Source: Asterochloris sp. CNOR1
Lineage: Eukaryota > Chlorophyta > Trebouxiophyceae > Trebouxiales > Trebouxiaceae
NCBI GenBank assembly: GCA_963969365.1
Contig: OZ017748.1
Location: forward strand, 3,035,001-3,099,000
DNA length: 64,000 bases
Direction: 5' to 3'
The notes below the pieces were generated by a model, which saw only the letters and a program-made list of their open reading frames with translations, was not told the origin of the DNA and ran no database searches. A program made the position numbers and the translations under genes. Shown piece by piece: positions 9,561 to 61,776 of the stretch (within the stretch, counting starts at the first letter, position 1; every line of letters begins with the position of its first letter).

Positions 9561-12500
9561 ATGTCTCCAGGGAGGCTTCGCGACAGCGTTGACATTGATA
9601 CAGCCCACGGCAGCCAGGATGCAGCACATGCGCTCAAAAAGAGTGTCCGCCAGCAGGGGACCCAAGGAGCATCTACCTCAGACTGCACCATCACTTGGCT
9701 CTCTGGGTCGCCTGGCCCCATTTTCGAGGAGCTAGGTGAGCATTTGTCAAGCCCCATATGAGCACATGCATGTGGGCTGTCCATGTGACCAGCCTGGCCA
9801 TGTGACTTCACAGCTAGCAGGCGTGCATCCTAGTCTCAGCTGTGCAGAAATGCATTGACACTGTTGCGTGCAGGGGAGAAGGAGCTGCATGCCACCGTAA
9901 CCGATGTAGACCCAAAGGATGCAGTGACACCCGACAACTGGGTGCCGCGGCATAGGGATCTGATCAGGTATGTGTGCCAACTTACATGAGGTTTCTCTCA
10001 TGGCTCTGCCATGCATGGCTATGCAGCGCTAGAGCCTGTACTTCATTATGTGCAGGCTGACGGGGAGGCATCCCTTCAACTGCGAGCCGCCGCTGCCCCA
10101 CCTAATGGCCTCTGGCTTCATCACGCCCACCTCGCTGCACTACGTCAGGTCAGCTGTGGACGGGGTTGCCAGCACCTGCCATGCTTGGTCAATGTCCGTA
10201 CGATCAAGCCGAAGAAGCCCGCCACCCTCTGTCTGAGCTGGCCGGCCTCACCTTGCATCATGTTCCTGCATCGTGCAGGTAAACAGGGCTGCCTGCCACC
10301 AGATAGCTGGTGCATGGGGTGCTTATGTGAGCAGGCCAGCCTGAGCGAGCAGCATGCTCCTCTGTGCAGGAACCATGGGGCAGTCCCCCGGCTGTCGTGG
10401 GAGACCCACCAGCTCACTGTGGGGGGCTTGGTGGAGAAGCCCACCACCTTCAGCATGGATGACCTGGTGAAAAAGTTTGAGGCCCACACAATCTGCGTCA
10501 CGCTGGCCTGCGCAGGGAACCGGCGCAAGGAGCAGAACATGGTGACCAAGACCAAGGGCTTCAACTGGGGGCCCAGCGCCACCTCCACAGGTGCCAGCCA
10601 CTGGATGCCTGCTGGGCACGGAGCGTCTGGGAGTGTGCGTCTGTTACTGTGCCTTCATCTCGGGTCCACCACCACCTTCCTCCACAGCTGGACTGCAGCC
10701 TGCGATTGTTGCAGTTGCCGCAATGGCCTCCACTAGGGTCCCAGCGCCACCTCCACTGGGCCACACTGGTCAGCTGCACCGCACAGCATGGCCTGAGCTG
10801 CCCGAAAGACTGGCTAGGATTTGCACACTTCAGCGAGCATTAATGGTGCCTAGCACCACCTGTAGAGCACTACAACACACTGCCAGAACCCAGTCAGCCT
10901 GCACAACACAGGGCACCCCATGGCTTCGCAGCGCTGACTCCAGGCATTTCTCAAGCTCAGCACTACCTGTGTTGGCAGGCCACTCATAAGCTGCAGTGTC
11001 TGTGTGTCAAAGCCCAGCCTCCACTGCCAAATCCTGTGAGCACTGGCAAACGATGAGCGGGTGCGTTACTGCGCTTTCAGCAGGCAGCTCATCAGTCTGC
11101 CGCACATGCAATCACCTGGAGTGGGGTGGACCTAGTGAATGTCCTTGGAAAGTGCCATGCCTCTGAGGTGGTTGCCCCCAGCCTCCCCTTACTTTGCTGC
11201 GCTGGCAGGTCCCCCTTGCCTGCTCCTGCAGGCGCCTGGACTGGGGTGCGACTTGTGGACCTGCTCAGAGCCTGCAAGGTTCGCAGCTACAAGCAGGGGG
11301 CCCGCTTCGTGCACACAAACGGCGTGAAGGGGGAGCTGCCCCAAGGGGACGGAACCTATGGGACCTCCATCCACTACGGCATGGCCATGGACCCTGCCAG
11401 CGATGTCCTCGTGGCCTACATGTACAATGGGAGGCCCTTGGCGCCAGACCACGGCTTCCCCGTCAGGATCATCATCCCAGGGTGCATTGGTGGCAGGATG
11501 GTGAGCGTGCAATCCCAGGGGTCGCTTCAGTAAGGTGTTGGCAGCATCGCGTGCTGGAGCCAGGGCATGGCCCCCTGACTCCAAGTCACAGTTTACATGT
11601 TGGAGTGATCCTCCTGGCAGCAGAGTGGTGGGCGGCTGCTGCTGGAGCCCTGCATGCTGCAGGCAGTGAGGTCGCACATCATGTCTTTCCCCTTGCTAAA
11701 ACTATGCAGCATGCTGGGTGGCTGGCCAGGTCCAGCGCTGCATGCTGCAGCTGTTGCCCTGGTAGAGCAGGCAAGATGCAGCTGTTCAAGCCCTTGCAGT
11801 GTCCTCAGTGGTCAGCAATGCTGGGAGAGCAGGCCTGGGCAAGCCCTGTGCTGATGTGCGTTGTGCGCAGCCCTTCACAAATGGAAGCTAGCAAGACGCA
11901 GCAAGCACTCTTTGGCAGCTCTTCTCAGAAGGCGCTTTCAATGCTGCGCAGGTGAAGTGGCTGCGCACCATTGAGGTTCTGGACACTCACTCCACCAACC
12001 ACTACCATCGCCACGATAACAAGGTGTGTGAAGTTCCTCACTTACACTGGTTGCTGGGGAGTGTTCGTTGCTGAGCCACTAGCATTGGTGCAATGCATCT
12101 GACCGTGTGCTCAACTGCTGCAGGTGCTGCCAGCAGGCATCACTATGGAGATTGCTAATGCAGAGGGTGAGGCCCTCAGAACGTTGCTATGTGCTATCAG
12201 CTGTTGCCACCCGGCCTCCACCAGTTGTAGCCCTCAGCCCTTGTCAGTGAAGTGCTGCCCTGTCTTCCGGCTGCCTGGAGCAAACAAGCAGCTGTGGGTG
12301 TTGCAAGCCGACCTTGCCAGACACGTGATGGCCAGCTTGGCAACTTCGTGGGCTGGCGGGTGACTTGTCTTGGCCTGGCTGCCTCATGGACTTGCATGGC
12401 ATAGATGAGCCCACATGGCAGCACATGATCCCCCCTGCCTGCAGGATGGTGGCAAAAGGAGGACTTTGTCATCAACGAGCTTAATGTGCAGTCTGTGATC

Positions 12501-15500
12501 ACCTCGCCTGGCCATGACGAGATCATCCCCCTCACACAGGAGAAGTACACAGTCAAGGGGTATGCTTATTCAGGTGAGCTTGCATGCCAGGGGATTCGAG
12601 GTGTCATGCAAGGCCTGGGGCGCATGCAGCTTTGCTGCCGAGCAGCCATGGCTGGCATTGCTGCACCTGTGGCCCATGAAATGAATGTCACTCTGGCCGC
12701 ACCTGCAACCTGTGGGCTTCCAAGCTGCCAAGGATGAGTGCTCATGGGCTGCAAGGCAGCTGTTGCCAGCCACTTGGGGTTGGCTTCGCAGGGCCTGCAA
12801 CCTGATGACCACAAGCATCTGTGTCTGGATCCTCACGCGCCAGCGACCTGTGACGGGAGACCAGACCGGCTGTTCATTGCAGCTGGGACTGACTCCCCAT
12901 TTGGGGCTGCAGGTGGTGGCCGAAAGGTCATCCGCGCAGAGGTTAGTCTGGATGCTGGCCAGAGCTGGCTCATCAGCAACATCATCCGCTTTGAGGAACC
13001 TACAGAGTACAACAAGCACTGGTGGGTCCTTTGCCAATGTGTGATGCACATGCCAGCTGTCCTGCTTCACCTTGAGGACAGGCACCAATGCAGTCTGTGG
13101 CTGCCTTGCAAGGGTCTTTCTTTGGGTGCTTCCGCTCAGCAACAAGCACTGCCAGCTTGGCAACTCTGCGTGCGCATGTGCGCATTTCAGAGAGCTTTCA
13201 TGACTCATGGATGCCTCAAGCATTGGCGGGTCTCAGGCTGCGTTCTGCACAGGCGCCATCAATCGTTTGAGAAGCCCGCAGAGTGCAACAAGCATTGGTC
13301 AAGCAGGCTGCTGGGCATGCCTGCGGGGAGCAAGACTTCCTCCTGTCTGCCCGCGTTCTGCGCTGCTCACATGCACGCATGCTGATGCTGCAGCACTCTC
13401 TGCTGCAGGTGCTGGGTGTTCTTTGAGGTGGATGTGCCAATTGTGGACCTGTTGAGGGCCACCGAGATGAGGAGTCGTGCTGTGGACGCCAGCAACAACC
13501 TGCAGCCAGACAAGTGAGCTGAGGGTGGCCTTTGCTGCATCTGCTGTGCACAAGGGGCCTGCGCTGTGCTTAACAGCTGACAGCTGCTGGCCCCACAACC
13601 ACACAGAGCCTGTTGCACTTGATGAACAGGTCTCCTGCTGCTTGACATTGAGCCTGTTGTGCGTACTTGACACGTGCTCACAAGCCGTGTCCTGCAATTG
13701 CCCAACATGGTGAAGCTACTGAACAATGCCTTTGATCCCTGTGCTACAGCTTGACGTGGAACCTGATGGGCATGCTGAACAACCCGCACTACCGCATCAA
13801 GACAAAGCCCGAGAGCAGCCAGCAGCTGGGCCTGGGCATCCACTGCGAGCACCCCACCAAATCTGGTGGCGAGGCCGGCGGCTGGATGGAGAGGGAGATG
13901 CTGGCCAATGCTCCCCCCGCTGCAGAGGTGGTGGTCAGCAGCGGGCCGGACACCAGCAGGCTGCCCACCTACTCGCCTGAGGAGGTGAGCCTGCGAAGCC
14001 AGGCTGGGCTGATGCAGTGCAATGCATGCTGTAAAGGTGTGAGCATTAGGCTGCAGCTGCTTACAAAGGTGGATGCGGCTCGGCCGCGACGCACTGGTCT
14101 TCAAGCTGGTCACATGGATGTGGTTGTGCAGCCCAGTGCATGCTCTGTCTGCTGAAACCTTATGAGTCCTGTTCCGCCATGTGCCTCCAATTCCTGCCTG
14201 CAGATCGAGAGGCATGACAGCCATGAGTCGTCCTGGTTCATCCATGACGGCAATGTCTACGATGCCACCAAGTTTCTCAAGGAGCATCCAGGTCGGATCA
14301 TGCTGTTGGCATCTGGGGTGGTGAATGGGGTTAGCTAAGGGTGTAGGGCCGCCCAACCAGGGACTGCCCTTGAAAGCATGTTTGCCCTTGGCATGCAGTA
14401 GTTATGCAGTCAGCGGCACCCCTGTTGCTGCGCCAGTTACCAGGGCCACCTGCTCCCGCACTGAGGTTTGAGGCAAGCAGCCGCACTGCTGTGATCCCAA
14501 CCTGCAAGCCTTGGGTCATAGAGCCGTGCTGCTGCACCATATGTGTAGGGCCCAGTGCCTCAGGCCAAGGAGCCTCTGTATCGACGCCTTATGCTCAGCA
14601 AGCAGCCACTGTGAGGTGCATTGCGCTTGTGTCATGCCGTCTGCTAGGATACTTGGGTTCACTTCACATATGGGCAGATTGCGCATCTGCCATGCTATCT
14701 GCTGTGTGTGTTGCCAGTATGCTTGCTTTGCTTTACACAGAGAAGCAAAATTGTATGTTGGTCTGGCACAAGACTGTATGCTGCTGACAGCTGCCCTGCT
14801 GCTTTGTTGTGCACTTAGCCTTGCCCAGCACAACAATCCCACAGCAGCCTGGCAATCACTTGTGTTGCTGCAGGTGGTGCCGAGTCCATCCTCATCGTGG
14901 CTGGAGCTGATGCCACAGATGACTTCAATGCAATTCACTCGGCCAGGGCCAAGGGCATGATCAAACAGTACATCATTGGCAGGGTCGGGAAGAGCACGGG
15001 GGGAGATGGCAAGCCAGAGCAGGCGCCTGTGGACAAAGAGGTCAGTCCCTGAGCTACACATGTTGCGGTTCAGGGCTTCTCGTCTCTGGTTTGATTGCAA
15101 ATCAGGGCACCAGCAGGTCAGCGTGGGCGCCTGCGGACATCGAGGTCAGTCCCTGAGACAGCACAGGTTTTCTGATCTGAAGGACCCATTGAGATGAGGG
15201 TTGCCTGGCAGCTGAGATACCATGTGCACCTGCCACCAGCTCAGATACTTCAGCCTTTCATAGGGGAGCGCTGAGACATGTTGAAGAATCATGACTCAAC
15301 AACAACCACAATGCCTGGGTGCAGGCAGCACAGCGTCCTGCTGTTTGACGGTGTACACCGACTAACATTCATGTTTACTGTGCAGAACAAGGAGGCAGGG
15401 GCAGAGCTGATTGCGCTCAACCCCAAGAAGAAGATCTCCTTCAAATTGGCTGAGAAGCATGAGCTCAGCCACAATGTGCGGCGCTTGCGCTTTGCCCTGC

Positions 15501-17686
15501 AGACGCCAGAGCACCGCACAGGGCTGCCCGTAGGCCAGCACATGTTCTTCTATGCCAAGGTCAGCAGCAGCAGCAGCATGCCTGATCATGAAGCTGCAGC
15601 CTGCCTCCCAAGTTCCACTGCCGCAGTGCGCCTGTTGCCATTGGCCTTGTGCGCTGCTGAGTGATGCTGAAGGACCCAGCAGAGCTGCACTCACACATCA
15701 GCTTGCTGTGTTGTGAGCCTGCTCTGACAAGACCCTGCCTGCCTCTGTACAGTGCAAGGCCCTGTCTGCCTCCCAGTGTGCTGCGCCTGTGTTTTCACCT
15801 GCCTGCTGCCCCCAGCTGAACTCGCCATGTAGGTTAAGAGATGACCACATCTGTATTAATTGCATGCCCCCTTTGGCCTTCAGCAATTTGGACCATGCAT
15901 GCCAGACCCAGCATGGACACTGTATGGCACCTTAGATGACGTCTGCCTCCCCCCTGCTGCACGCAGGACAAGTAGGGAGGCCAGGTTGTGTGCTTACATC
16001 ACCTGCTGTGGGCCCCCTTCCAGTCAACTCTACATTGCCCCTGCCCAACAGCAGCTGAACATTGCCTGCCCATTGCTGTCTGCAGGACAAGGGGGAGACC
16101 ATCATGCGCGCATACACTCCCACCAGCAGTGACGACGATCTGGGCTACTTTGACCTGGTCATCAAGATCTACTTCTCGAACGAGCACCCCCAATTCCCAC
16201 TGGTGGGTGCTGAGGCTGCTTGTGGGGTAAATGGAGGGCAGGGTGGCAGATGTCTCATGTGCCTTTGTTGTGGCAGAAGGACGGGGGCAGCGGCAGGTGA
16301 CTTTCTTAGCATGTGGGGCTGCGCGGTGCTGTTATGGTGCTGGCTGGGAGCCAGTGGGTTCCAGCTTGCTTAGAAGCGTCACACAGGGTCAGAAAGAAAC
16401 AAGGCATATTGCAGCAGAGCTGTGCGTGCATTGAGGAGGCGTAAGACCACCACACGCACATCTCACAGTCATCTCAGGCAGAGCTCTACTCACCCTCCTG
16501 CCATTGCTGCTTGTGGGCTGGCCGAGCAGGTGCTGATCTAGGTTTTGGATATCAGAGACACAGTGTCTCTCCCAATGTGCCCTACGCAGCAAGTGCCGCT
16601 ATCTGCAGTTGAGGCCAGCCGTGCTGCAGGCTGCCTTTGCCAGTACCCATGCCTCTGTGCCCTTGGCAGCAGTCGTAACTGCTTGGCTGCCTGGCTGCAG
16701 GGGGGGCGCATGACTCAGGTGATGGAGGCACTGAAGGTTGGCGACTCAATGGAGGTCAAGGGGCCACTGGGCCACTTCATCTACCAGGGCCGCGGCAGTT
16801 ACAAGCACAGCGGCAAGGCCGGCACCTGCCGCCAGCTGAGCATGATTGCTGGCGGGACGGGCATTACGCCCATGTGGCAGGTCATCCAGGTGACGAGTCT
16901 CTTCTTTCTTTGTTGTTGTCATTCACCTGCTTGCACCTGCCGCCCGCTGGTGGGCTTGCGTTGGGGAAGACCCTCAGCAACACTGTTGCCTCAGCCACTG
17001 GCAGTGGCCGCTGCTGTGGGGCAGCAGTGCTTGGGTCTGCATGGCACCACGCTGCTGGGACTTTTCAACAGGCAGGCAGACGTGCCTGCAGTGCATATGC
17101 ACTGCCGTGCCACACCCGCTGCACCTGCCACTTGCACCTCCACCAAGCTCCCCAGGGAACTCCTGCTGCTCAGCCTAGTACCTGCTGAGGCAATTCGCAG
17201 CGGTGTCTGAACAGGCAGCTTCCTAATGCTCAAGAGCCCCGGCTCTGCATGCTGTACTGAAGGACAAGTGGACTGTAGGTTTTGAAGCCCCCTTCTGCTG
17301 ATGCGCAAAATAGTGCCCACAAGACCAGTCTTGGCTGACTTTTGTCCTGTGCCGACGTGCAGGCAGTGCTGAAGGACAAGGAGGATTACACCCAGATGAA
17401 GCTCATCTTTGGGAATCAGACGGAGGACGACATTCTGCTGAAAGAGGAGTTGGACACATTGGCCATGGACGCCCGCTTCTCGGTCCATCACGTGCTGAGC
17501 AGGGTCAAGTCATGGTCTGGGGGCAGCACAGGCAGAGTCACTGTGGATCTGATCAAGGAGCACTGCTTCCCTGCGGGTGACGACACGCTTTGCCTGCTGT
17601 GCGGCCCCCCAGGGATGATTGACGCCGCCTGCAAGCCAGCCCTGGACAAGTTGGGCTACTCCCCAGAGCACATCGTGGTCTTCTGA
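9561..17686 (+). CDS. NIA: Nitrate reductase (NADH type, complete)
   Basis: Cytosolic enzyme reducing nitrate to nitrite, the first step of nitrate assimilation. Seventeen exons: 9561-9735, 9874-9967, 10056-10148, 10370-10590, 11232-11500, 11952-12023, 12124-12166, 12445-12573, 12913-13021, 13409-13513, 13750-13984, 14204-14291, 14874-15040, 15386-15559, 16086-16202, 16701-16889 and 17363-17686. They give 867 aa, normal for the family. The molybdenum-cofactor domain carries the ligand Cys (near residue 168) in TLACAGNRR. The cytochrome b5 domain runs from about 516 with haem ligands in EHPGG (His 543) and NAIHS (His 566). The FAD/NADH module, from about 601, shows [15 protein letters not shown] and CGPPGMI. 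The start is the first in-frame ATG giving a typical short leader; an in-frame upstream extension exists but lacks an ATG nearby. Several introns hold degenerate copies of neighbouring exon ends (see findings). Confidence 0.95.
10737..10760 (+). repeat. Degenerate copy of nitrate reductase exon 4 end inside intron 4
   Basis: The end of exon 4 (about 10568-10591) contains CCAGCGCCACCTCCAC just before its donor. The same 16 bases recur at 10741-10756, 168 bp downstream, followed by TGGG instead of the donor. A weaker match to the start of exon 5 (CCTGGACTGGGGTG) occurs near 11114 as CCTGGAGTGGGGTG, about 120 bp before the real acceptor. Read directly from the sequence. Confidence 0.6.
13264..13301 (+). 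repeat. Degenerate copy of nitrate reductase exon 9 end inside intron 9
   Basis: Exon 9 ends with codons for [11 protein letters not shown] (about 12990-13022). Inside the following intron, from about 13265, the sequence encodes [11 protein letters not shown] in an open frame. At DNA level about 28 of 34 bases match. The copy lies about 274 bp downstream and its donor is lost (GGTCAAG instead of GGTGGGT). Confidence 0.7.
15126..15157 (+). repeat. Copy of nitrate reductase exon 13 end plus 5' splice site
   Basis: Bases 15022-15053 span the end of exon 13 and its donor (GAG then GTCAGTCCCTGAG). Bases 15126-15157 repeat this 32-base stretch with three mismatches, 104 bp downstream and wholly inside the intron. 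The copy keeps an intact GTCAGT, so it could act as an alternative donor. Confidence 0.8.
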
Positions 17687-19119: not shown

Positions 19120-22100
19120 ATGTCCAGCCCACCTGAGCTCTTTGATACTCCGCCATCCGAGAAGTGGGGGCAGCAGGTGAGCTTACGTTGTTCCGGTGCA
19201 TTCCCAAGGGCCTCGACATGAGCCCTCACATACAGTTGCGAATGCATGCAGGCCACTTCCACCCAGCAACCCAAGGAGGGAGATGCCTTAAGCAGGCAGG
19301 CTGCACAGCAGACTGTCAGCACAACGCAGCTGTTCTCTGGCGAGCATCAGGTACACAGTGACATACGCATTATCTTGACATTCTGTTGAACCTTGCTCTG
19401 CCTGCCCATGCAGGTGCCAACCCACGCTCACGAGGAGAACGGGCAGAGGCACATGGCACCATCTGAGGTTGGGGACGCAGGAGGAATGCAAGGGATTGGC
19501 GTGACATCAGGCACCCAGCAACTCTCTGGCCCGTCCAGCGGATGGCAGTCCTTCTCGGGTACACATCAGTGCTTGAAGCTGACGACCACATGATTTTCTA
19601 GCCTTTGGTTGCCTGTTATGATGCACTGCTTGGCATGCAATGTTATACTTCTTGTCTATGTCCTGCAGCTTGGCCCGTGTAGTGGCTGTCATGGCCCCAT
19701 TGTGCGTCCCCTGAAAGCATCAGGCATAGCTCGAATCCAGTTTATGGGGATCCAGACCCCCGAACCGGCACCTGTGCTGCTGCTTGACAACATGCTGACC
19801 GACCCAGAGCAAGCTGCCCTGCATGGTGAGCATTCAACCCACAGGTCTGCTGCCTGCAGGCACCGGCATTGAGATCCCTCCCGCTCTGACCATCTCCCGT
19901 GAGCAGGCAATGCCAGATGTCAGCACAGCCTTGGCGCCGCTGACTGGTGAGGCTCCCGTGGGGCCCCACGGCAAGGATGTGAAGCAGGCGCTGGCGCCTC
20001 TGACTGAGATCAGCGGAGGCGTGGACCCTGCAGGTGAGGGTCTCCAATACGATAGAGGGGCCTGATAGAATTGAGCAGAGGGGTGATTCCTACCCTGACC
20101 AGAGGCCTGACGGTGCTCAGCGTGTGAGGAGCCAGCAGGTAGGCAAGGTTGCAGCTCAACTATGTGTGCCGAGCAGGGCAGGGCAGTGGGCCTGGGGCTT
20201 TTTTGCTTGGCCCAACATGCAGCCCATGCTGTCTGCAGGCGTGGCTCCAATGTCCGAGGCCTATGGGGTGGGCGCTAAGCAAGCGCTGGCCCCTCTGACT
20301 GAAGGGCGCGCGGCACCACCGGGGACAGCCCATGCTAAGAGTGTGGAGCCACAAGCCGCAACTGGGGGTGCCCCTCTCGGGAGCCAAGCTCAGGTGAACC
20401 TAAGAAAAGACGTGCTGCAGCACACGGGACGCTCCTGCTCCACTGGAACAGCAATTTCATGCCTGAGTGCCTGGCTGGCAAGGGCGGCTGACAGCATGGG
20501 CCAAGGCAGTGGAGCCTCAGGCTGTGACGAGCCTTGCTCTAGGTGCTGGGGGCAGTGTTCAGAGGCGCTCGAGGCAGATGCGCAGCGTCTCTACAAGGCC
20601 CTACGGGGCTGCAGACTGATGATGGCAGACTTTCTGTGCCTGCCTGGCACTCTGGCGACGGCACAAACACGTCTGCATGAAGCAAGTTGTATGCATCAGA
20701 GGAACTTGGTACAGCATTCCTTCAGGAGACTGTCAGCATTGCAATATGTTAAATGACCCTGAGGCTCACCCTTGCAACGCTGTATAGCCAGCTGCACTCA
20801 TCAAGCAGTGGCCTGCACCCGGTCAGTTCAACCCATGCTGGCGAATGTGTGGGGCTCAGGCTTGGCAACTCAGCATTGCAAGCTGCCCCAGCGCTGAAGG
20901 GCCGCTGGCCCCTTTGGGGGACTGACTGCCTGCCTGCCTTCAGGAGACCGCCTCAGTCCCCCGCGCCGACACGTGAGCTGCTCAGAGGGGGGGCCACATG
21001 GCTTTGCAGCTCGCCATGTGGCTGACAGCACTCCGGCCTGCCTGCAGGAGATCGCTTCAGCCCCGGCTGGCGACTTGTCTGGGGCTGACTCCCGAGAGCC
21101 AGCAACTTTTAAGCGCTGGGCGCCCGAAGGGGGCAGCGCAGGAGCATCCGGCGGTGGGCCCACCTCCAGCGGCAGGGTTGTGGACAAACAGGGGAGCGGG
21201 CAGCAGGAGGGGCTGATGCAGCGCGTCATGCAGCAGGCGGTGTATGTGGAGCAGCAGGTGGTGGCCAAGTCCAAGCAGCTGGTGGACAAAATCCTGTACG
21301 AGGAGGTCCCTGTGGTGAGCTGAGGCATGAGCTTAGTGCTGGGGAGCGTTCCGTTTAGGTGTTCAGGTGACATGATCTATGCTAGACGGGAGGTGTCTTT
21401 GCTGACGGCTTCTGTCTGCATGCGAACACTGCTCCATCTGTAGGGTGCCAGTGGTGAGTCAGAGGCTGGGATGCCCTGCGCAGCACCGCACTGATTGAGC
21501 TTGCCGGTTGTGGGGCCCTGTATGGTGAGCTCCTGCATGCAATGATGCCTGGTGCATGTCAACACTGTGCCTCAAATGGTGGTGCAGCATTTTAATGCAC
21601 TGGCGCAGCACTGCACTGCGGTGCCTCAGCAGGCACTCAGTTTGTCCACCTGCTGACCTCCCAGATGTCCACCTCTAGCGGCTGCCTGCACCAATGCTGG
21701 CTCAGCTGCCTGTCTGTAAGCTGGCTTAGCAAGCTGCAGCTCAGACACAAGACAGCCTCACAATGCTGCAGGACGAGTCCGGCCAGGTCATCGAGCAGGG
21801 TCCGCGCCCAGCCAGTGGGCCAGGCATCCTGGAGCAGGCCAAGGAGTATGTGGGGCTGAGTCCCAGGAAGGGGGTGGCGCCAGGCACCACAGGTGCAGCC
21901 GAGGGGCCAGGTACAGGGAGCCGGGGCCCTCCAGCCACGCAGGTGAGGAACAATGCAGATCATCATGGGCGTTTGTTGTAGGTATGTGGGACACGACTGG
22001 GGTCCTCTTGTGGACTGCCTTGCTGTGGGCTTCAACAGGCACCTCCTGAACAGTCACAGCTGCCAGATGTGGCGAAGTCCCAGTGCCTGCCAGACGCTCA

Positions 22101-24745: not shown

Positions 24746-24983
24746 ATGCTTCAGTCACAATGATGCTTTCCCTTGTGTTTCTTGCTTTCTGTGCCATGTC
24801 TTAACTCGATTGATGGTGTCCCCACATTAAAGGCATGCCCCACTACGAAGGTCAAATCGCATCAAACTCCAGTTGCTTTCTTGAGGCTTGGTCAGGCTGC
24901 ATGCATTGAATTAGATGTCATCCTGTGGTGTGTGACCGAGCAATCAAAGATGTGCACTACGCTTCTTCAGACACCCAGCATGA

Positions 24984-50200: not shown

Positions 50201-53200
50201 GAGCCGATTTGCTGCGCCCAGCCAGCACAGTGAGCAGGGCAGCACCACATCTGTGGGGCCCGCAGCTGCAGAGGCAACAGGAGGACCTCCCTGCAGTGAG
50301 GGGCATGGGGAGGACTTACAGCAGGAGGCCAAGGTACGCCTTCATGGGTCTTGCCAATATGGGGGGGAGGCAGATCTGCAGGTGAAGGTGACTCTGCACA
50401 TGTACCTGAGCACCTTTGAGTTGAGGCGCAACATGCATCTCTGCCAAAGCTTGAGCATCCCTTATGGTCCCTGCAGGCTGGGGCAGAGGGCCTTTGCGTT
50501 GACGTTGACCAGGCTCAGCGCTCGGCTGCTTCTCCAGATGCGAGGCTGGCCGTCCTTATGCAGGAGCTGGACCAAGTCAGGTCCGTCCTGCCTTCACAGG
50601 TGTTTGTGTTGACAAGCAAGTGCAATCTCAGGCCAAGTAAGGACGGCTATGCTGGCAGTGAGCTTGTTGTGTGTTGCAGTATAGAAAGTCATCTTCTGGC
50701 ATCAGTAGCTGCTGTACAGTGTGATCAATGCTAAGTGCAGCGTCTGGCATGCCTGCAGCAAGTCATGGCTGTGTGCGCAGGGCTGCTGGAGCCGCAGCAG
50801 AGGCTGTAGCTGAGGCTGCTGAAGCCAAACTGGCTAAAGTCATGGCTGGTTCCTGCTCCCGTGTTGACGAGGTTGCACAGGTTGGTGTCACTCTGCAGGC
50901 GGTGCTTGTATGTCAAGTGTGGCTGGCGCTTTGCCTGTTCAGCTGGCAGGCCTCATAGTGCAGCTGTGCTCACAGTTATGCCGATTGCACACTTGCTACA
51001 ACCTGGCTCACTTATCCGGCCTGTGCTCTCATGCTAGCAGCCCACAAGGCATTTTGTCAGAGGCTTGAGTCACCCTGTACAAGCTTCATGCCAGATGCTG
51101 CTCAATCAAGGCCAAGCTGCACAGAAATGCTTTCGCTGCATTGTGAGCATGCCTGTGCAAGTTCGCTGCGACCCTCCCTGCAGCTGAAGGCTGACGTGCA
51201 CAAGGCCTACCAGGCAGCTGAGGATGGGACTCAGGCCAGCCAGCAGCGAGTCAGGGCGCTGCAGGGGCAGCTGCGGGAGTCGGTAGTTGCCCTGCAGGAG
51301 ATGCACGACGTGCAGCTCAGCAGCGCGCAGGCGGAGCTGGCTAAGGCAGCCAAGGTAAGGACAGGGTGTTGAGTCCAGGTTGGCGCTTGATTTGCAGCCC
51401 CAAGGCAACTCAGGTGACGAGACAGCAAGAAGGCGAGGTCTTTCTGCTGCCATGCGATGCATCTGCCTCCATTGCACTTCCAAGTAACATAGCACCTGGA
51501 CAAGAGAGGCTGTCCCTGTGCACTCGGAGCTATGCACCTTGGCCTGCCTGCTGGACAAGATGAGGGCTCTTGACTCAAAAATGTTGATCTGTCATCATTC
51601 GGCATGGCAATGAGGGCAACAGCCCTGTGTGCTGCAGGCTGTGTGGCTGTCCATGGCAACCTCGGTTGCTAGAAAGGGTGATGCTGTCTGATCCTAATCT
51701 GGCCGATGTGGGGCTTGCTGCTTGGGTGCCTTAACAACGAGTCGCAGACTTGTTTACTGCGAAGCCTTTTGTCTGGCAGCTGGCATGTGAGCACCTCAGC
51801 TGCCTTGCTGCAAGCCACCCGGCTGTAGTGTTCAGCCTCACAGCATGCCTGGTGCAGGAGAAGGCTGAGCTGCAGGCTGCTGCTGAGGCTGCACAGCGCC
51901 AGTTGGAGGCTGCAGCTGAGGCGGCGGCTGGAGAGCGGGAGGCGGCATGCAGCAGCCTGCTTGCTGAGCTGCAGGTGAGACTCAAGGGCCAATCAAGTCC
52001 TGTGTCCTGCCTCTTGCCTGGCTGCATGCCAAACGCATTGAGCCACAGCCCTTGTCGGTGGAGTCCAATGCTGTATGCAACTCCACTGCTTCCGGCCCTG
52101 CAAAACCCCAAACTCTTTTTTCTGCTGTCTCCCGTGCAGGTTGCCTACCAACAGCTGGAGGAAGCGCAGGCCTCCGCTGCTCACGCTGTCACATTCAAAC
52201 TGACAGTTGCTGGTACTGGTGTCAGCCCCACTCATGCGACAGCAGTCACCGCCAAGCTCGCCCCCTCCCCAGCACACCAGGCACTTGAGTCCGCTGTCGT
52301 GGCAGCAGCTGAGGCCCTGCTGGCCCTGGGGTGCAACGTGCAGCAGCTTGAGGGTGTGGGCTGTAGCCCCTTGGCAGAGGTGGGCAGTGCCTTCCAGACC
52401 CTCTGGCTTCTGCTGGCTTCAGCGCAAACGAATTTAAGCCCAAACTCTACACGCTCTGCTGGAGGGTGCAATGTGGAACAGCTTGGGCATGACAGTGGTG
52501 GCAGTGAGTGCCTCCTGGGAGGGGTAGGCAGTGGCCTTGGCTGGGACTGCTGTGGCTTCAAATCCCTAGCTTCACTGACATAGTCATGCACAGCGATATG
52601 GCTGCTGCCGGTCTCGTTCCTGTTCTGGATGTCAATCTGCTGGTCAACACGGTGACAGCAGCGGCCTCTGGTGCTTGCAGGCCGGTTGCAAGGTGGCAGG
52701 GTTCTCCCCGAGCAACAAGGTGCAGGCTGTTGAGGCGATGCAGACCCCTCAGAGCTGCCGGCGCACAGCCAGCCGACTGGCCCCCTGGGAGGCAGACCAG
52801 TGGGCCGTGCAGGAGGCCTGCAGCAGCGGAGGCATCCTGGAGGCAGGCAGCCTGTCGGTCAAGGATGCTGCAGAACCCTTGCAGCTCTCACCTCTGGCGT
52901 CTGTGCTGGCAGCGGCTGATCCTGCTGCTGCTGGGGGATCAGGGCTGATGGCTCCCCCCAACACAGTAGCAAAGGGGACGAGCTTCGAGCGCGTCGGGTG
53001 CAGCCCTGTGCTGCATCGCGCGGCTCAGAGGCTGGCAGCGGCCGGGCGGAGCAGCGCTGGTGGCACCCCGCAGAGCTCCCCAGCATGGGGTACGGCTGAG
53101 CTGGCAGGATGCACCCCGCTGCTGGACAGGGCGGCTGCCCTGCTCAGGTGGCAGGCTGAGATGGTGTTGTCCCCCGGGAGGGGCCTGACCAGCAGCAGTA

Positions 53201-55733
53201 CAGATGGCGCTGCGGCACCCCACAGCACGCCGGCAGGGTCTACCCCTGCTGCCGGCGGCTGTGAGGCGCTGCTGCACAAGGCAGCTGCCCTGCTGGGTTT
53301 GACGGCAGACGCTGAGGTGGAGGCAGGCTGGAAGGAAGTGCTGGCAGCGGGGCGCCTGGGGGATGCAAACATCGCAGCGCCCCCCAACACCCCCGCCACG
53401 GGCCACATAACAGCGGCTCAGGCAGCCAGCAGCCCTCTGCTGTGGCGCGCAGCTGCGGTGCTGGCGACCAAGGCTGTGCAGGCAGTTGCCCAGCCTGACT
53501 TTGGGGTGGACTCAGCTGCACGGCTGGCTGGGGAGGCATCTGCAATGGAGGGCACCCAGGCTCCTTGCAACACGCCAGTGGCCTCTGCTGCAGCTGCTGT
53601 GGAGCAGGGCCCCCTGCTGCTGCATGCAGCTGCTCTGCTGGAGGCTGGCAGCAGTGGGGCCCTGGCTCCCCACAACACGCCTGCGGCCTCTGCCGCGGTC
53701 ACTGTGGGGCAGAGCCCTCTGCTACTGCGAGCAGCCGCTCTGCTGGAGGCTGAGCCAGGGTTTGGGGAGGAGTCTATTGCCGGGGAACTGTTTGAGGTGG
53801 GCAATGGTGCCTGTTGCTGACACTTGGGCAGCCCAACAGTTTGGCTGTCAGCCAGTACAGGTTGTGCAGACTAACTGCACTGCAAGGAGGGTACCCTGAC
53901 AGCAGCACACAGATACAGCCTGCTGCAGATCCAGCACCTGGGCTGCTTCCAGACCATTGATGCAGTGTGTGAGTTCACGTGCAACCAATATCGAAAACGT
54001 AGGAGGGACCAGCTGCACTGCCACCCACAGCAGCTTAGCAGGTCCCAGACGTCACTGACATCGCCAGAGTCCATGCAGGAGGGCTTGAAGGCAGAGGAGG
54101 GTCCAACTGCCCCCCACAGCTCCCCAGCATCTGGGCTGCTGCCCAGGGCAGGTGCCGCCGTCCTGCTGCACAGGGCCGTGCAGCTGCTGGCCCAATCCAA
54201 GACCGACAAACACAGCCATGACAGCCTGCCAGTTGCAGAGCAGCCAGCTGACGGCTCCCAGCAGCAGGTGGCGCCTGCGTTCTTTGGGGCGCACAGGTAT
54301 TTTCTCCCAAGGACAGCTCCTACCCCAGAGCGACTGGCCACCACTCTCAGCAGCAGCACTGCCGGCAGGGGCATGCAGCACAGCTTTGTTCCCAGCAAGG
54401 CAGGAACCTCGCGGCTTGCTGGCCTGGTGCTGTCAGCACGGAAGGCCTCCACTCCCCCAAGCGGGCGGCGCCAACGGGAGTGTGGCGCTGTGGAGGCAGG
54501 ATCAAGCAGGACACCTGCAGGTGCTGTTGTAGCTGATTTGCAGCCCTGTGAGCTCTTCAAGGCAGCCTTGCAGGCACATGGACAGGCAGTCACCGTTTAA
54601 CATGCCATTGGACTTGCAGTTGTGCATGCAGGGCAATCTGGGGGATGACAGCAAACATTCATCTGTACAGCTCTCAGTCATGCCCCAAGCACAGCACGAC
54701 CTGTGTATGAGTGCGATCAGGCACAATTGGTGTTAGGCTGCATCTCTAGGTGCACAAGCGTGCCAAGAGAGCTTGCACAGGCAATGTCCTGGAAGTGACG
54801 TGAGGTCACGAGTGCTGCTCTACACATGCAGTGGAGCCGAGCCCTCAGGGCGGCCAGCAGTGGGCAGGGGTGGCAGACAAGCTGAGGCAGCTGAGGCATG
54901 AGCTGGTGGTGGCCAAGGACAAGCTGAGGGCAGCCAATGAGGTAAGCTGGCTGTGCTGATCATGGCAGCACCCATGCATCAGCTGCGCTTGCTGGCATCT
55001 GGAACGGTTGGGGCGGCCCTGCCTTTGCTCTCAAACCAGCTCTGATGGAAGTATGACCAGCAGCGAGAATGCCTCATGCAGCAGCTGCTGGCTTCCTAGG
55101 GGGTGCTTGCTTGAGGTCTGGGTGCACCCTGCAGGCAGCAGCAATGACGCCTCTGCCCGCCGCAGCGCTGGCTGACGTGACAAACGTGTGTCAGACCAGC
55201 AGCCCTGCTGCCAACAATAGCCCCCTGGCATCAGTGCCAGCCCCAGCAGAAGGCCCACAGGGGTCCAGCACAAGCTTGGCAGCAGCCTGTGGTGTGCAGG
55301 TGGGGCCTTCTGCACAGGCATCCTCGCTTGTGGAGTTGCCAGATGTGAGGCCGAAGATCACTGCTGAGTCCCTGCATCTGCGTCTGCCATGCAAGGCTGC
55401 CCCTGCTGACCAGCTACATGGCATGCAGGAGGCAGCTCCCCCTGCTGCAAAGGCCCACGAGGACCACAGGGAGGCCCGTGACAGCTCTGAGTCCCCCTTA
55501 CCCCTCCCAGCAGCCCACATGACGTGTGGCAAGGTCAGTCCATCGATCTGCACATGACTGGTTTCAAAAGCTGAACAGATCTGCCTGGCTGTTTTAGAAT
55601 CTCTACCAATTCTCACTCCCCAGTGTTGCTGTAGGGTGCAATTGGCAAGATGAGACAGTCACAGGAACGGGAGTTTAGAAGGAGAGCTGCTGCTCTGGGC
55701 ATTCGCATCTCGCCTTACTTCAAGCGAAAGTAG
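44276..55733 (+). CDS. Very large Ala/Ser/Pro-rich protein with coiled coils and LLxRAAxLL repeats
   Basis: Unrecognised; probably over 2,400 residues. Probable start MQRQPKRSPLATLQN at 44276; exons before 46100 are only roughly placed (coding around 44276-44580, 45000-45645, 45795-46098). Phase-consistent later exons include 46361-48500 (probably with an intron at 47049-47246), 48757-48974, 50015-50334, 50477-50580, 50781-50880, 51184-51354, 51858-51974, 52140-52378, 52681-53798, about 54031-54520, 54832-54941, 55135-55533 and 55635-55733. Many TP and SP sites (FATPAFDL, AETPDSLFATPA) suggest kinase regulation. Coiled coils: EKAELQAAAEAAQRQLEAAA, QRVRALQGQLRESVVALQEM and ADKLRQLRHELVVAKDKL. 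Exon 52681-53798 carries the repeat listed separately. The C-terminus is basic (FRRRAAALGIRISPYFKRK). A cytoskeletal, kinetochore or nuclear scaffold role is conceivable but unproven. It could be two genes, although the phases argue for one. Confidence 0.6.
52951..53745 (+). repeat. Protein repeat array: APxNTPA ... LLxRAAxLL, six copies plus one distant copy
   Basis: Copies start near 52951 (APPNTVAKG...VLHRAAQRL), 53065 (TPQSSPAWG...LLDRAAALL), 53214 (APHSTPAGS...LLHKAAALL), 53377 (APPNTPATG...LLWRAAAVL), 53560 (APCNTPVAS...LLLHAAALL) and 53665 (APHNTPAAS...LLLRAAALL). A seventh is at about 54109 (APHSSPASG...LLHRAVQLL) in the next exon. Spacing varies from 35 to 61 residues. Copies five and six are close at DNA level, implying recent duplication. 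Each unit joins a short Pro/Ser/Thr turn to an amphipathic helix. Confidence 0.85.
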
Positions 55734-55874
55734 CCAAGCAACACAGACAGTTCTTGCATCAGAGTGCTGCATTTAATGATTTGATGGTAACTGTTCTACA
55801 TTGTGTGAGACTCCTGTGTGAAGCGAGCAGCATGAAATGCTTCTTAGGGTAGCTGCAACATCGATGAGATGACG

Positions 55875-58800
55875 TCAGCGCAGCAGATCCTGCTCAGCCT
55901 GGGCACCAGGTTTGTCCTGCCCCGCAGTGCTTATGGAGTGGCCAGTGAACATGTCTTCAGGCAAGGGGGCGCTATGTTGCGAAGAGGCCGCAGCCTCGTC
56001 AGCTGCATGATGCGTGGCGCTCTTGCTTGTCAAGGTGACATGCCGCTCGTCAACGTGACCCAGGTCCTCCATGTGGGGCACAGGGGGCAGGGCGTCGCAG
56101 TGGCTGGCAGAGTTGCTGAGCAGCTCTGAATCCTCATCGTCAACACCAGGGCTGACTGGCTGGTACAAGGTCTCAGCTGCAGCCTCTGGGGGCACAGCAG
56201 CTTGAGCTGCTGAACCCAGGTGCTGCTCAAAGCCCCTTGCAAAGGGGCTTGAGCTGGGCACATTTGCGTACTGCAGCTCATGAGCTACTGACTCTGCAAA
56301 CTCTTCGCCATGACCAATAGCAGCATGAGGCGGCCGCTCAGAGTGGCTGCCACTCTGCTGCTTGACGGCCGCCTTACTTACTGAGGTGGCGGCTGCATCA
56401 GCATCCTGTGGGTGCAGCAGCGCTGCCGCCTGCTCCTGCAGGGAGGGCTGTTGGGCCTCAGCCAGCGCAGCCCTGGCAAAATCGCTGTGGGGCTGCCAAG
56501 CCGGCTCTGCATGCTTGGGCAGGTGATTTTCCTCCGCAACAGTCCCGCTGGGCTGCCTCCGCGCATTTGCTGTCTGTGCTGCCTGCTGCTGCTTCTGCTG
56601 TGGGGCAGCCTGCACATGCACAGCGAGAAGGGTGTGCTGTCATGGTCAGGTGCAAAGCAGAGCTATCTATGCACTCAAGCAACAAGCACGACCACTGGGC
56701 TGTGACAGCTACAGGCCTGCGCCATCACAAAGGCACTTCGCACAGGAGGCTGCCCCTGGATCAAAGCAATCTCACATCGCTGCTGTGCAGCCGGCCCACA
56801 CACCATGCAGACAAGTCCTCACTTGTAGTGGCAGATGCTGCTCCTGTGCCCAGCCCTGTTCCTTCCCACCCTGCTGCTGCACAGCCCCGGCATGCTGCTC
56901 AAGGGCCAGCACCAGCGCCTCATGCCTCAGCACCAGCTCCTTGTACAACTCCAGCAGCCTGGCAACATCTCCAACCCTGAGGTCGCCAGGCCATGCATAC
57001 AGGTATGGGTGGCGCTGCTGCAGGGACCCTGCTGTGTCGGCCTGCAGCAGAGCGGCTGTGCCTGCCTGCTGCAGGTCAGCCACGCTAGGCCAGGGGACAG
57101 GTAGAGAGGCCTGCATGCAGGGGCAGCCAACACTAGGGGAGGGGCTGGTGTCACCATTGTGTTCAGCGGCCCAGATAGCCTTCCAGCCAAAGTGCCCCTG
57201 CACGCGACCCCCCCCTCCGGCATCCTTCAGGCCAGGAGCAGCTGCCTGAAGAACATGCCAGCCGAGATCTGGCTGTGTGAGACAGTCAACGAGGCTGGTC
57301 ACGAAGCCCTCGCCCAAGCTGATCTCCTGGCCAGGCAGGAAGCATGCAATGTTCAGACTCACTGTGCGGCAGCTGCTGGCTCCCAGGATGCCAACACAAT
57401 TTGGCCTTGCCTGGGTGGGCACGTTTCATGTACAATCGATCCTCTTGACCTGTGCTGCAGACTCAGATGCAACCCCAGTCTTCACCTGCCCCGGCGCTGG
57501 CCCCAAGGCCTCCCTTGCCGCGCTGTGTGGCGCCTCGCTGCTCAGAGGGGAAGGCCCTGGCTGCGCAGCCCCATGCATGGGGTTGAAGGTCATTCCCTGC
57601 CCCCCACTGACAGAGGCAGCGCGGGGGGACCCTGCACAAGGGGGCAGGCAGCACTCTGCAACACTGCTGCAGGCCGTTGCTGCCAGCCATGTGCAAGCAG
57701 CTGACTGCACCGGGAACAGGGCAGTGTGAGCTTGCACACCTCCACTATGTCAGAATGGTAGCAAGCTTGCAATTGAAGGTGCTGGAGTGCCTTGGCTGCA
57801 GTGCTGCATGCTGGAGGGGACCCATAACCCCAGCAACATCCCATGCAGTACAGGACGTCCCTTGCAGCCAGCCAGCCAGCCACGGTGCTACTGCAGGCTA
57901 CTGGCAAACCCACAGCTGTGGTCCTACCAGCTCAGCGAGGAGGACATCATGGCCCACCTGGCAGGGACGGCTTCTCCTCCTGTCCCCCTAGGTTGTCTGG
58001 TGGAGCCTCGTCTATGAGGTTGGTGGGCACATCCATGCTTGGGCGATGGGTGGGTGGGGGCACCTGTCCAGGCAGCAGGCGGTGTCGTGGGGCTTGGCTG
58101 GCTGCACTGTGGCTTGTCCCCTCTCAAGTTGTGAATGCTGTAATCAGCCAGGAGGGACTAAGCACACAGGCTGCAGTGGGCCCCTGCAGCTAATGCTGGT
58201 GCCTGGCCAAGCCACCAGGGAAGAATAGCATGACAGGGACGTCATAGCAGCACCTGCACACCAACTGGGGCATGTGGAAACCCTACCTGGTAGGTGTGGA
58301 AATCCTTCCCTGGATGCGCCCGGGCCAGGATAGGCAGACAGTCGGTTTAGCATGGCACAAAAGCTTTCTTGCAGCTGCTGGACTTCTGTAAGTCCCTCCA
58401 CGAGCTTGTCAGCGGCGGCTTCACACCCACCTGAGCATGGTCGGCGGCAGGCCAGCCTTTGCGACGCCCGTCAGTAAGGCAGACCCCAGACAGGTGTGCA
58501 AAGGGCATCTCCAGGCAGCTGTCAGACCTGTCTACTTCACTCCAGGCGCTGAAACGCAGCGTCTCTGCCCCCACCTGAGCGCGGGGGGAAGCAGCCTGAG
58601 AGGCCACCTCAATGTCGGCCACCCCAGCAGATATCATGCGCGCGACGAACTCGTCTGGATCCATGCTCAGGGATGCACTGTTGATTGTCTCTACAAAGGA
58701 GGCAGCGGAGTACTGCAGGGCAGCAGACGCGCCTGGTTGTAATGTTGCTGGGTGCAATCTGGCACCACCTTACAAAGGACACAGCAGAACGCTGCAGGGC

Positions 58801-61776
58801 AGCAGACAGGCCTATAAACTGTTGCTGAGCGCCCGAGTGAGTTCCACAGAGGAGGCAGCATAGCACTCTGCGGAGCAGGTGACACACAAATACAATTAAA
58901 AACAAATCACAGCTCAAAGCTCCGTGGACCCCCATTCACAGCTCACAGCTCAGATGAGCCGCTTGGGAACAGAGCTTTTCCCTTCACCAGCCAACTTGAT
59001 TGGGCAATGCCTCTCCTGACACCACCAGCTCTACACACGCTTTCTTCCCACACTTACTGGTGCACAATCCATAAAAGCGTCCCTGCCGCGCTCACCAGCT
59101 GGGTGTGGACGCGGACCGCCCCTGACACCATGTGGCTCTCTCACATGACAGCAATGGGCAAGACAAAGCCTTCACAGCTTGAGTGGAAGCAGAGACCTTG
59201 CCAGCCACCCAAAGGCTGGAGACACAGCAGCACAGATGTTCCAATGAACTGCTTCCCCTCTCACCAGCTGGGTGAAGAAGTATGCAGCCTCAGAGACCAT
59301 GCGGCTCTGCATCCTGAAGCGCGTAATGTACTCCAGATTGCTGGCAAGCTGGGGAGGGTTAGCATGGATGACTACATAGATCAGGACGGGCAGAAAGTCA
59401 TCAGCACCTACAGCTCAAGGGAGTAGGATCCTGAAAGCCCGTGACAGGACAGGTGCAAAGGAGCATATCAGCGACCACTGCAGCAGGAGTAGGAGACTTC
59501 GAGCACAGGGATGCATGTGCAGATCATCAGGCACCTGCAGGATGTGATCAGCAATTGCAGCACAACAGAGTGGGGTCATTGGGCGCATCTGTGTGACAGC
59601 ACACCCCCAGTGACACCGCACATTGCATGGCTTTAATCCTGCAAGCTGCTCAGGGCTGCTCTGAGGCCACAGCATGGCCGGTGCTGCAGCCTTGGAGGTC
59701 AGACAGAGGGCTGTCAAGCAGCCAGGCGTCAAGCAGCAGCACCCACCTCTACCGCCTGATCCCCGCTGGCTGGCAGCCTGGAGTAGGTTGGTGACCACTC
59801 GACAGCAATTGAGAATGCACACCAACTTGTCCCGGGGTGCCTGCAGAGATCAGAACTACTGGCATTACAGAGCTGCTCAATGTCTTGACTCAGGCTCAGC
59901 AGAACCGTGGGTGCGCAGGCTGGCCTGGAAGTCCAGGGCCCAGTGAGCTGCGCAGGTGCAACCTCACAAGACTGCAAAGTCAGCAGTGATACCAGCAGGG
60001 TGTGCAGCAGCATGGCCAGGCTGCATGGACCAGCAGGGGACCCCTGGGGCATGGGCTGCTCCTCAAGGGCTCAGCCCTGTGCTGCAGAGCCACTGCTGGC
60101 CCTTTCGTGGTGCTCCAAGCCCCATCTGCCGCCCCAGGCACCAGCCCCACCTTGTAATTATTGATCTTGTGCAGCTCCTTCATGGCCATGAGCCAGGCCT
60201 GCACGCAAGGGTCACACGCAATCAGACTGCTAAAACTATGGTTGAAAGGCAGCAGCAGGCAAAGCTGCCCCCGCAGCTGCTGCAGCTTCAACACATGGAG
60301 TATTTCAAACAGCGGATGGATTGGACTCCGCACAACTAGATGCGGCATATGAAGTGTATTACCTTTTCGTCCTGGTACACAGCGGGAATGTCCAGGTGCT
60401 CTGGGCGCACAAAGCTGAGCGCAGCCATGCGCTGCCCCAGGGCCTCGTCCCTCTCCCTGTCCAGCGCCGACTGCGCGAACACCTTGCCGTGAATCTTGGT
60501 CATCAGATACTTCTCCAGGCCCTGCAGGTGGAAGGACAATGCGCGGTGTGCAGGGAGGCACAGTGCTGACAATTGGTCATCAGGTGGTGGGTACGGGCGT
60601 TGCCAGTGCATACGCTGGCTCATTGTGCACAAGTGCAGCATCCCAGGCGCACACATTGCAGCCAAGCAGGCTCTGGCAGCGTGATTGTGCAGAAGTGCAT
60701 GTCACAGATACACATGGCAGTGGCTACGGGCCAAATTGTAGCCACTCTGTTGATTCCTGGCACAACCTTGTGCCAGCAATGCAACAGCTTTGCTTGGTGG
60801 GCAGGGAGGCAGAGTGTTGCGGGGGGTCCATGCATTTTCGGCAACTGCGGTGGCATTTGCGTCAGCCTGTGTGAACCCAGACACAGACATCCAGCCTGCC
60901 ACAGCCACATGAAAGTGGGCCTGCTAATGGCACCAGTCCACAGCTGTGGGCAAGGCAGTGCACCTGCCCATATGCAGCATGCCAGCCAGGCAGTGCCTGG
61001 CTGATGAGCTGTCGCTCATAAGCCCAGTTGACACTGCTTCACGGAATAAATGGGGCACACTCGATTGATGTCCAAGATCATGATGAGCAGCACATTCAGC
61101 CCAGCAGTTAGCTCCATGGCTGCTGCAGGCAGGAGGCTTTACCTCTGTGGCCTGTGACTGGTGCTCAGTGGGGGCATTTGCCCACACAGGATGATCCCTA
61201 AATGCGCTGTCTGACTTGGCCAGAAACGCCTGCACCAGCAGACACAGCAGGAGGGGTGGTCTCCCTTCCAAGTTTCTGGCAGCTGCTGGCAGGAGGTGGT
61301 GCAGGAAAGCCGCCTTTGTGACCCCTGTTGTTACCCCCGTCACACAACCAGTGAGTTGCGAAATATGGCCTGTCAAGTGCTCCTAGCCTAAGGCGAACAG
61401 CCCTGCACAGCATTGACATCCAACAGCAGAGCTTGCCTGCACCATCTCGCTGTCCCTGTCAGGGTCCCTCGCACGGTCATCAAAGGTTTTGATAAAGCTG
61501 CAGCAGAGGGGTGCAGGTGTGCCTGAGCAGAAATCTGTACTTGGAGGTGGCTGCATAGGAGCCGGGGATCCATGCAGATTGACCGGATGTTGGCCTTGTG
61601 ACAGCCAGCAGCACACTGCTATTGTGCATGAGTCGTGTGGGCTGCATGTGCATCGTTGGGGCTTACTTCTTGATCAGGCGCACAAGGTTGGCAGCCTGTG
61701 GGTCCTTCATCCTCTCCAGAAACTCTGAAAATGACAGGGGCTGCGTCGCTTGAGCAAGCTGACTGTCATCTGCCAT
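55875..61776 (-). CDS. VPS9-domain Rab5-type GEF with long C-terminal extension
   Basis: VPS9 proteins activate Rab5 GTPases on endosomes. N-terminal exons: 61776-61667, 61497-61437, 61229-61143, 60521-60363, 60198-60151, 59840-59747, 59407-59265 and 58712-58541. They read [128 protein letters not shown] and [17 protein letters not shown], in step with Arabidopsis VPS9A throughout. The catalytic acidic residue is in DDFLPV. Later exons extend the protein: 58430-58287, one near 58060-57960, one near 57635-57487, about 57415-56823 and 56609-55875. The tail has a helix ([20 protein letters not shown]), a Gln/Ala-rich end, and a possible clathrin-box-like NLIDE. Phases around 58287-58060 do not close, so a small exon is missing there. 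One donor is GC (after 61437). Confidence 0.85.
58692..58881 (-). repeat. Triplicated acceptor and exon start in VPS9 intron
   Basis: The real acceptor and exon start (plus-strand 58692-58730, minus reading TCTGCTGCCCTGCAG then TACTCCGCTGCCTCCTTTGT) is copied at 58771-58809 (TCTGCTGCCCTGCAG then CGTTCTGCTGTGTCCTTTGT) and again, more diverged, at about 58845-58881. Periods are 79 and about 75 bp. The nearer copy keeps an intact CAG acceptor in the upstream intron. Confidence 0.75.
59088..59110 (-). repeat. Copy of VPS9 exon 7 end plus donor inside the next intron
   Basis: On the minus strand the exon ends TTCACCCAGCTG then GTGAGAGG (donor at 59264). About 168 bp into the intron the sequence reads CACACCCAGCTGGTGAGCG, sharing CACCCAGCTGGTGAG except for position one. 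The copy retains a strong GTGAGC donor. Confidence 0.6.

Follow-up and report, generated by a model that had tools for sequence, protein, structure and literature searches.

Gao and Lynch are said to have found in 2009 that internal gene duplication is a common process, and related work on how tandem duplication adds or lengthens introns was reportedly done by Hellsten in 2011. Descriptions of such events concern single genes and a few species (PMC4974935, PMC2891723, PMC2812944, PMC4202315, PMC3443670). In Daphnia, internal direct repeats are present in 55 of 90 new introns, compared with 16.2% of established introns (PMC4202315). Chlamydomonas and its relatives are described as having conspicuously long introns for compact genomes, with medians of 198-343 nt and a driver that is likely to be ancient (PMC8226300). 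A genome-wide pattern of junction copies in green algae was not found in literature surveyed by titles and abstract openings, a survey that does not prove its absence. Here, we consider introns that contain copies of their own exon edges. These edge copies appear to be relics of old local duplications, which lengthened the introns and left the protein untouched.

The window is the whole stretch of DNA presented here, 64,000 nucleotides long (block W, C3:3035001-3099000). Together with 100 kb on C1 (block A), 100 kb on C2 (block B) and 50 kb on C9 (block C), it forms a sample of 314 kb from four contigs, or 0.6% of a genome of 56.4 Mb in 21 contigs. The chlorophyll a/b-binding family has 31 matches in this genome, and the source is therefore a photosynthetic eukaryote; it is taken to be a green alga on this basis together with an earlier note on the window. 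An exon-intron model was trained on the genome itself, starting from nitrate reductase exons and from splice matrices set by hand; the gene models are predictions of this self-trained finder, most of them without RNA or protein support. There are 39 predicted gene models in the 314 kb, a rough count because the finder fuses neighbouring genes, with 622 introns (median 256 nt), donors like AG/GTGAG and acceptors like TGCAG/G (the slash marks the junction). Pfam backs the nitrate reductase (five domains), DUF3754 (TMEM143-like) and VPS9 models, and part of the nitrate reductase model can be aligned to solved structures of nitrate reductase and sulfite oxidase; the piece of the LEA-like gene that was compared had no Pfam match. 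Searching a nitrate reductase exon in genome contigs gave relatives that were only prokaryotic (41 loci, which were left out of the comparisons), and viral contigs yielded none. The comparison of each edge with its own intron covered the 533 of 622 predicted introns that are 120-1200 nt long, the other 89 being excluded. Edge queries extended no more than 15 nt into the intron. The main cut was an alignment score of at least 14; a score of at least 16 defined 48 strong, junction-crossing pairs, and it should be noted that 6.5% of edge-intron pairs reach a score of at least 11 by chance.

The earlier note on the window had proposed, from at least four unrelated genes, that introns carry degenerate copies of adjacent exon edges with their splice sites. 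A repeat finder, together with a plain scan along diagonals, recovered all the copies it named at nearly the same positions (two TMEM143-like ones weakly), and the scan of edges against own introns that it called for gave a clear excess over other introns and shuffles across the 533 introns. At least one edge copy is present in 64 of the 533, about one in eight in the sampled 314 kb. At the main cut, 36 of 533 donor edges and 31 of 533 acceptor edges match their own intron; for the reverse complement of the same intron the numbers are one and two of 533, respectively, and for other introns 0.23% and 0.38%. Mid-exon sequence matches its own intron in 2/342 cases (other introns, 0.06%), and a piece from the head of the intron matches the rest of it in 8/406 (other introns, 0.15%). 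The 48 strong pairs cross the junction. They come from 19 of the 39 gene models, and every block contributes: 13 in W (98 introns), 11 in A (170), 14 in B (169) and 10 in C (96).

The sequence is rich in GCTGCAG-like words, and TGCTGCAG can seed weak acceptor matches, so that chance or a shared low-complexity vocabulary has to be considered as the source of these matches. Against this stand the low rates just given for other introns of similar length and for the reverse complement. There is also the result that a single dinucleotide shuffle of the intron bodies left no edge match with a score of at least 16, and the signal depends on distance. Per Mb and per 100 bp of offset, the 314 kb contain 134-210 direct pairs with a score of at least 17 where the offset is 20-200 nt, and 191-210 where it is 50-150 nt, a range in which dinucleotide shuffles give 0. 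They drop to 0.6-3 past 600 nt, the signal fading within approximately 400 nt. Low complexity is refuted for the bulk of the matches, some of the weakest of which it may explain, and as a general account we give it almost no credence. Inverted pairs and dinucleotide shuffles remain at 0-6.4 per Mb per 100 bp in every offset bin. The local repeats are direct, without an inverted counterpart, in agreement with intragenic tandem duplication. Matches between edges and other introns at 0.2-0.4% only (edges being compared, and not whole introns) do not have the character of introner elements.

At offsets of 20-600 nt there are 135 direct pairs with a score of at least 17. The signal extends beyond the edges: 48 of these pairs are intron-intron, 64 exon or junction to intron, 15 exon-exon and eight other. 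Offsets that are multiples of three account for 13 of the 15 exon-exon pairs. A long predicted exon at 53000-53750 of the window has in-frame repeats (93 nt, 81%; offset 105 nt), which probably represent a repetitive protein.

In the nitrate reductase gene of the window (all coordinates are those of the window, and the copies are on the plus strand except in VPS9), donor edges have intronic copies at 10721-10759 (original 10553-10591; 39 nt, 85%; offset 168), in which the donor GT is now GG, at 13266-13299 (original 12990-13023; 34 nt, 82%; offset 276), in which it is kept, and at 15113-15157 (original 15009-15053; 45 nt, 82%; offset 104), in which the donor is intact. The edge at 12990-13023 has extra weak members at offsets of 130 and 204 (scores 12.0 and 11.6). 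Intronic copies of acceptor edges in the same gene lie at 11102-11137 (original 11222-11257, exon start 11232; 36 nt, 72%; offset -120), where TGCAG is now TGCAA and the score of 15.0 is under the cut of 16 for the 48 strong pairs; at 15944-15972 (original 16063-16091; 29 nt, 79%; offset -119), with AG kept; and at 17246-17268 (original 17358-17380; 23 nt, 87%), with AG lost. The LEA-like acceptor edge at 21033-21064 (exon start 21048) is copied within the intron at 20929-20960 (32 nt, 84%; offset -104) and a second time at 20811-20844 (offset -229). The TMEM143-like donor edge at 37431-37455 (donor 37453) has as many as three copies in its intron, within 37581-37757, at offsets of 136, 235/239 and 302; the middle one, 37666-37690 (25 nt, 92%, score 21.2), is the sole strong one, those at 136 and 302 being weak (scores 12.4 and 12.2). 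In VPS9, on the minus strand, the acceptor edge at 58692-58734 has an intronic copy at 58771-58813 (43 nt, 81%; offset -79; CTGCAG kept) and a second at 58843-58867 (25 nt, 80%; offset -152). A donor edge of VPS9 at 59252-59308 is copied in the intron at 59083-59139 (57 nt, 74%; offset 169; donor intact), and another acceptor edge (exon start 59407) at 59537-59577 (41 nt, 73%; offset 147; AG lost).

The copies beginning at 15944, 17246 and 59537 are additional to those named earlier, as are five others. Intronic copies of donor edges lie at 23802-23821 (original 23567-23586; 20 nt, 95%; offset 235; GT now AT) and at 52453-52538 (edge at 52380; gapped, 90 columns, 67%; offset 144; ends counted by hand), and an intronic copy of an exon end lies at 34901-34925 (original 34764-34788; 25 nt, 84%; offset 137), the block ending two bases before the junction. 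A weak donor-edge copy at 38867-38885 (original 38792-38810; 19 nt, 89%; offset 75; score 14.6) is mostly intron sequence. An intronic copy at 39413-39460 (48 nt, 71%; offset -90) belongs to an acceptor edge in the same gene model, 39503-39550, which has a second member at -185 (score 12.8). None of the five arrays that Tandem Repeats Finder reported in the window lies at the edges listed, and the copies there are in this respect not minisatellites. Separately, a 35-bp unit is repeated in tandem at 62226-62303 (2.1 copies, 95% matches) within a predicted intron, and an exact 15-bp repeat (2.3 copies) occupies 39081-39115, where a predicted coding exon starts.

The exon part of the block in the 48 strong pairs has a median of 33 nt (quartiles 22-45 nt), accompanied by some intron sequence, and the median offset is 129 nt. 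The copies are one-sided. Where the neighbouring exons are at least 120 nt long, 27/342 donors and 27/347 acceptors (54/689) have a copy on the intron side, compared with 0/373 donors and 1/385 acceptors on the exon side (1/758). In the intron across the exon they are near background (2/505 and 3/503; controls, 1 and 1). Some introns contain repeated copies. In a count made with a query somewhat longer than in the main scan, a second copy (score at least 11) is present at 31 of the 89 edges with a first copy; length-matched foreign introns would give 9.4, so approximately one-third of the second copies may be due to chance. The second offset is within 1.9-2.1 times the first in nine of the 31, compared with 4.3 expected, and nine is reached in 26 of 2000 shuffles of the spacing; by the same rule, spacing is uneven in 22 of the 31 series. 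The longest series, in a single block C intron, has members at 0, 93, 195, 284, 362 and 457; others are at 152, 297 and 430 (block A) and at 79 and 152 (VPS9). The array at the block C donor 22092 (C9:1022092) is the clearest found, with six spaced members of the donor edge that are legible by eye, several of which have an intact GTGAG-like donor. An autocorrelation of introns in general gave no clear peak of periodicity.

Introns with copies are also longer, with a median of 384.5 nt as against 264 nt without (Mann-Whitney p of approximately 1e-12); the gap of approximately 120 nt is near the median offset of 129 nt. The share of introns with a copy rises from 1/112 at 120-200 nt to 15/44 at 600-1200 nt, whereas for foreign introns of the same length the share with a match climbs merely from 0.1% to 0.8%.

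It had been suggested in the earlier note that several copies preserve exon codons. Among 50 pairs with a score of at least 16, mismatches between exon and copy at codon positions 1, 2 and 3 number 118/580, 121/588 and 141/587 (.203,.206 and.240), and frame-shifting gaps occur in 19 of the 50. Preservation of codons through constraint is not supported by these values: the near-flat mismatch over codon positions implies that the copies decay as noncoding DNA, and the pattern is one of noncoding decay together with some synonymous change in the exon. Copies as coding alternatives were rejected on the same values, which also lack the mark of coding constraint expected of duplicated (mutually exclusive) exons.

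The copies might instead be functional alternative splice sites or exon ends, retained through use. The splice dinucleotide (GT or AG) is kept in 34 of 48 copies (19/26 donors and 15/22 acceptors), and among these 34 sites 29 reach at least the 10th percentile of the scores of used sites, while 13 equal or exceed the score of their original. However, a neutral simulation keeps the dinucleotide in 61-75% of copies at ages of 0.2-0.4, and the dinucleotide is thus neither purged nor protected. Well-scoring sites do exceed the simulated range for the same ages, with donors at 16/26 versus 44-58% and acceptors at 13/22 versus 28-40%, although this surplus may stem from the uniform replacement bases of the simulation. 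Moreover, the offset is a multiple of three in only 15 of the 48 strong pairs, an in-frame stop lies between the original and copied site in 29, and both the near-equal mismatch across codon positions and the frame-shifting gaps speak against exon ends in use. We regard retention through use as improbable, even if individual copied sites could possibly, judging from their sequence, serve as decoy or alternative splice sites.

A further feature of the decay concerns CpG. Between exon and copy in the strong pairs, all codon positions included, C-to-T differences are found at 16/64 CpG sites versus 30/432 elsewhere, and G-to-A at 13/65 versus 34/492. In the 48 strong pairs of all blocks, CpG sites are altered at approximately three times the frequency of C or G elsewhere, and methylation-linked decay is therefore likely; this reading of base changes would also be a hint of CpG methylation in the genome. 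A special mutator may alternatively lie behind the CpG changes. Repeat-induced hypermutation was considered and is not favoured: codon positions 1 and 2 show no overall excess of C to T (0.089, as against 0.135 for T to C).

How much was copied in each event bears on mechanism. Instead of a full tandem unit, break repair in the intron might have copied 30-60 nt of the nearby junction as a short templated insertion, and the shortness of the exon parts (median 33 nt) would suit this. To distinguish the two, the intron stretch between the copies was compared with the stretch past the inner copy, which it should resemble if the unit were tandem, in 64 of 68 pairs, the remaining four being too short. 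The whole-period match has a mean z of 0.66 (se 0.19), with p<0.05 in 9/64 and p<0.01 in 4/64, the power being low at the age of the copies. Extension beyond the block gives z of 0.85-0.90 (se 0.22) on the intron side and 0.14-0.32 (se 0.16-0.18) on the exon side; for the best 20-21 pairs the values are 0.68 (0.28) and 0.02 (0.23), respectively. For simulated tandem units aged 0.3-0.45 the mean z is 0.9-1.9, or 0.1 if indels are numerous; for simulated short insertions it is -0.05 to 0.84, close to the real value of 0.92. A simulation mixing ages of 0-0.6 gave an identity of 0.85 and an extension z of 7.0, compared with 0.80 and 0.96 for the real pairs, its matches being younger. The nitrate reductase pair 15009/15113 aligns globally over its whole period at 61%, and three chosen cases do so at 61-69%, values obtained without a control. 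The weak extension on the intron side counts against the tandem reading, and in these simulations short-stretch copying appears to fit about equally well at some ages. Templated repair is expected to yield inverted copies too, however, and the copies are direct only; the four pairs that match over the full period with p<0.01, like the surplus of doubled offsets, also indicate tandem units. The whole-period cases, doubled offsets and orientation favour tandem units; short templated insertion is unlikely as the general explanation, and single pairs may represent short copying.

With regard to age, simulated young duplications (divergence 0.02-0.1) are detected in 76-95% of cases with a median block identity of 0.88-0.97, whereas the real pairs have a median identity of 0.80. 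Given the simulated detection rates and a constant rate of duplication up to a divergence of 0.45, approximately 14 of 47 edge pairs (approximately 30%) should look young (identity at least 0.9 over at least 30 nt), and one was seen. This profile is at odds with neutral tandem duplication running steadily at a constant rate, which was rejected; the near absence of young copies suggests an old wave. An identity of at least 0.92 over at least 40 nt is found in 2/135 direct pairs, both at offsets below 36. The joint fit places 0.4 events below a divergence of 0.2 in the 533 introns, approximately 44 at 0.2-0.3 and approximately 224 at 0.3-0.45. Fitting edges only gives approximately six events below 0.05 and 767 at 0.3-0.45, and intron-internal pairs only approximately one below 0.05, with 65 at 0.2-0.3. 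Because they depend on the mutation model, the fitted counts are orders of magnitude only. The joint fit is a poor one, with 47 edge matches seen versus 26.6 fitted (lowest class, 26 versus 10.9) and two exon-middle copies versus 6.1. Edge matches are commoner, and exon-middle copies rarer, than random breakpoints would give in this fit, a point against the tandem reading. Since nearly all the copies look old, the process seems to be largely past. The habit of which the earlier note had spoken is widespread in the sample, but it seems not to be an ongoing one. A past period with a higher duplication rate, or with weaker selection against extra intron length, is a possible cause.

It is probable that tandem duplication across exon-intron junctions occurred repeatedly in this older period, the site adjacent to the exon being kept while the other copy turned into intron and decayed. 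The unit, mostly of approximately 70-160 nt, would span the junction, and duplication would sometimes recur in the same intron. The gene would then have two copies of the edge; splicing would stay with the copy adjacent to the exon, leaving the protein the same, and the second copy would join the intron with its splice site, so that the intron would gain one unit per event. The intronic copy would wear down as noncoding DNA does, whereas the exon would stay conserved. We infer one-sided growth because duplicates entering the exon are hardly seen: these would be removed by selection, and introns would only grow by this route. Most events would date from an older period, at a neutral divergence of approximately 0.2-0.45. 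The local duplication of junctions envisaged in the earlier note is in this form upheld, with its link to longer introns and its presence in about half the gene models (19 of 39) and all four blocks, and without its element of codon constraint. More tentatively, and with less confidence than in the mechanism itself, it can be asked whether a bounded past wave, with anything from approximately half an event per intron to more than one, gave much of the intron length of the lineage; many introns might then be worn arrays of their own edges, with strings of splice-site decoys.

The edge copies are of interest as a direct, countable trace of one intron-lengthening mechanism with a one-sided filter, and as a natural set of duplicated donors and acceptors for studying how the spliceosome chooses between near-equal sites. 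The scan of edges against own introns is simple and can be applied to any annotated genome. Compared with known systems, the copies share with the duplications of Gao and Lynch (2009), as these are reported, that they are frequent and internal to genes. As regards the AGGT model of intron gain, the donor and acceptor edges of one intron are alike (score at least 14) in 5/576 cases (0.87%, versus 0.17% in the control), which is far under the 6-7% of junction-to-intron copies and not what that model leads one to expect; from this small excess, a few introns were perhaps gained by tandem duplication. The potato RdRp and Drosophila cases are intragenic tandem duplications, as here (PMC4974935, PMC2891723), and the potato duplicate crosses the intron-exon boundary like the copies described above (PMC4974935); in those cases, however, a new intron arises, whereas here an existing intron mostly lengthens. 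In Daphnia, direct repeats within introns were proposed to reflect a passive drift to longer introns, which is similar to the situation here, but they were ascribed to staggered double-strand breaks and belong to new introns, whereas the present copies are at splice junctions and look old (PMC4202315). Similarly, the work on human paralogs describes tandem repeats that elongate introns and that may form new ones at the exon-intron boundary (PMC2812944). The elongation is shared; the human repeats are recent minisatellites with mean units of 30 bp, and the units here are longer and degenerate. The introns, with their median of 256 nt, are similar in length to those given for the Chlamydomonas group (PMC8226300). 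What goes beyond the known cases is the scale of the pattern, its focus on junctions and its age.
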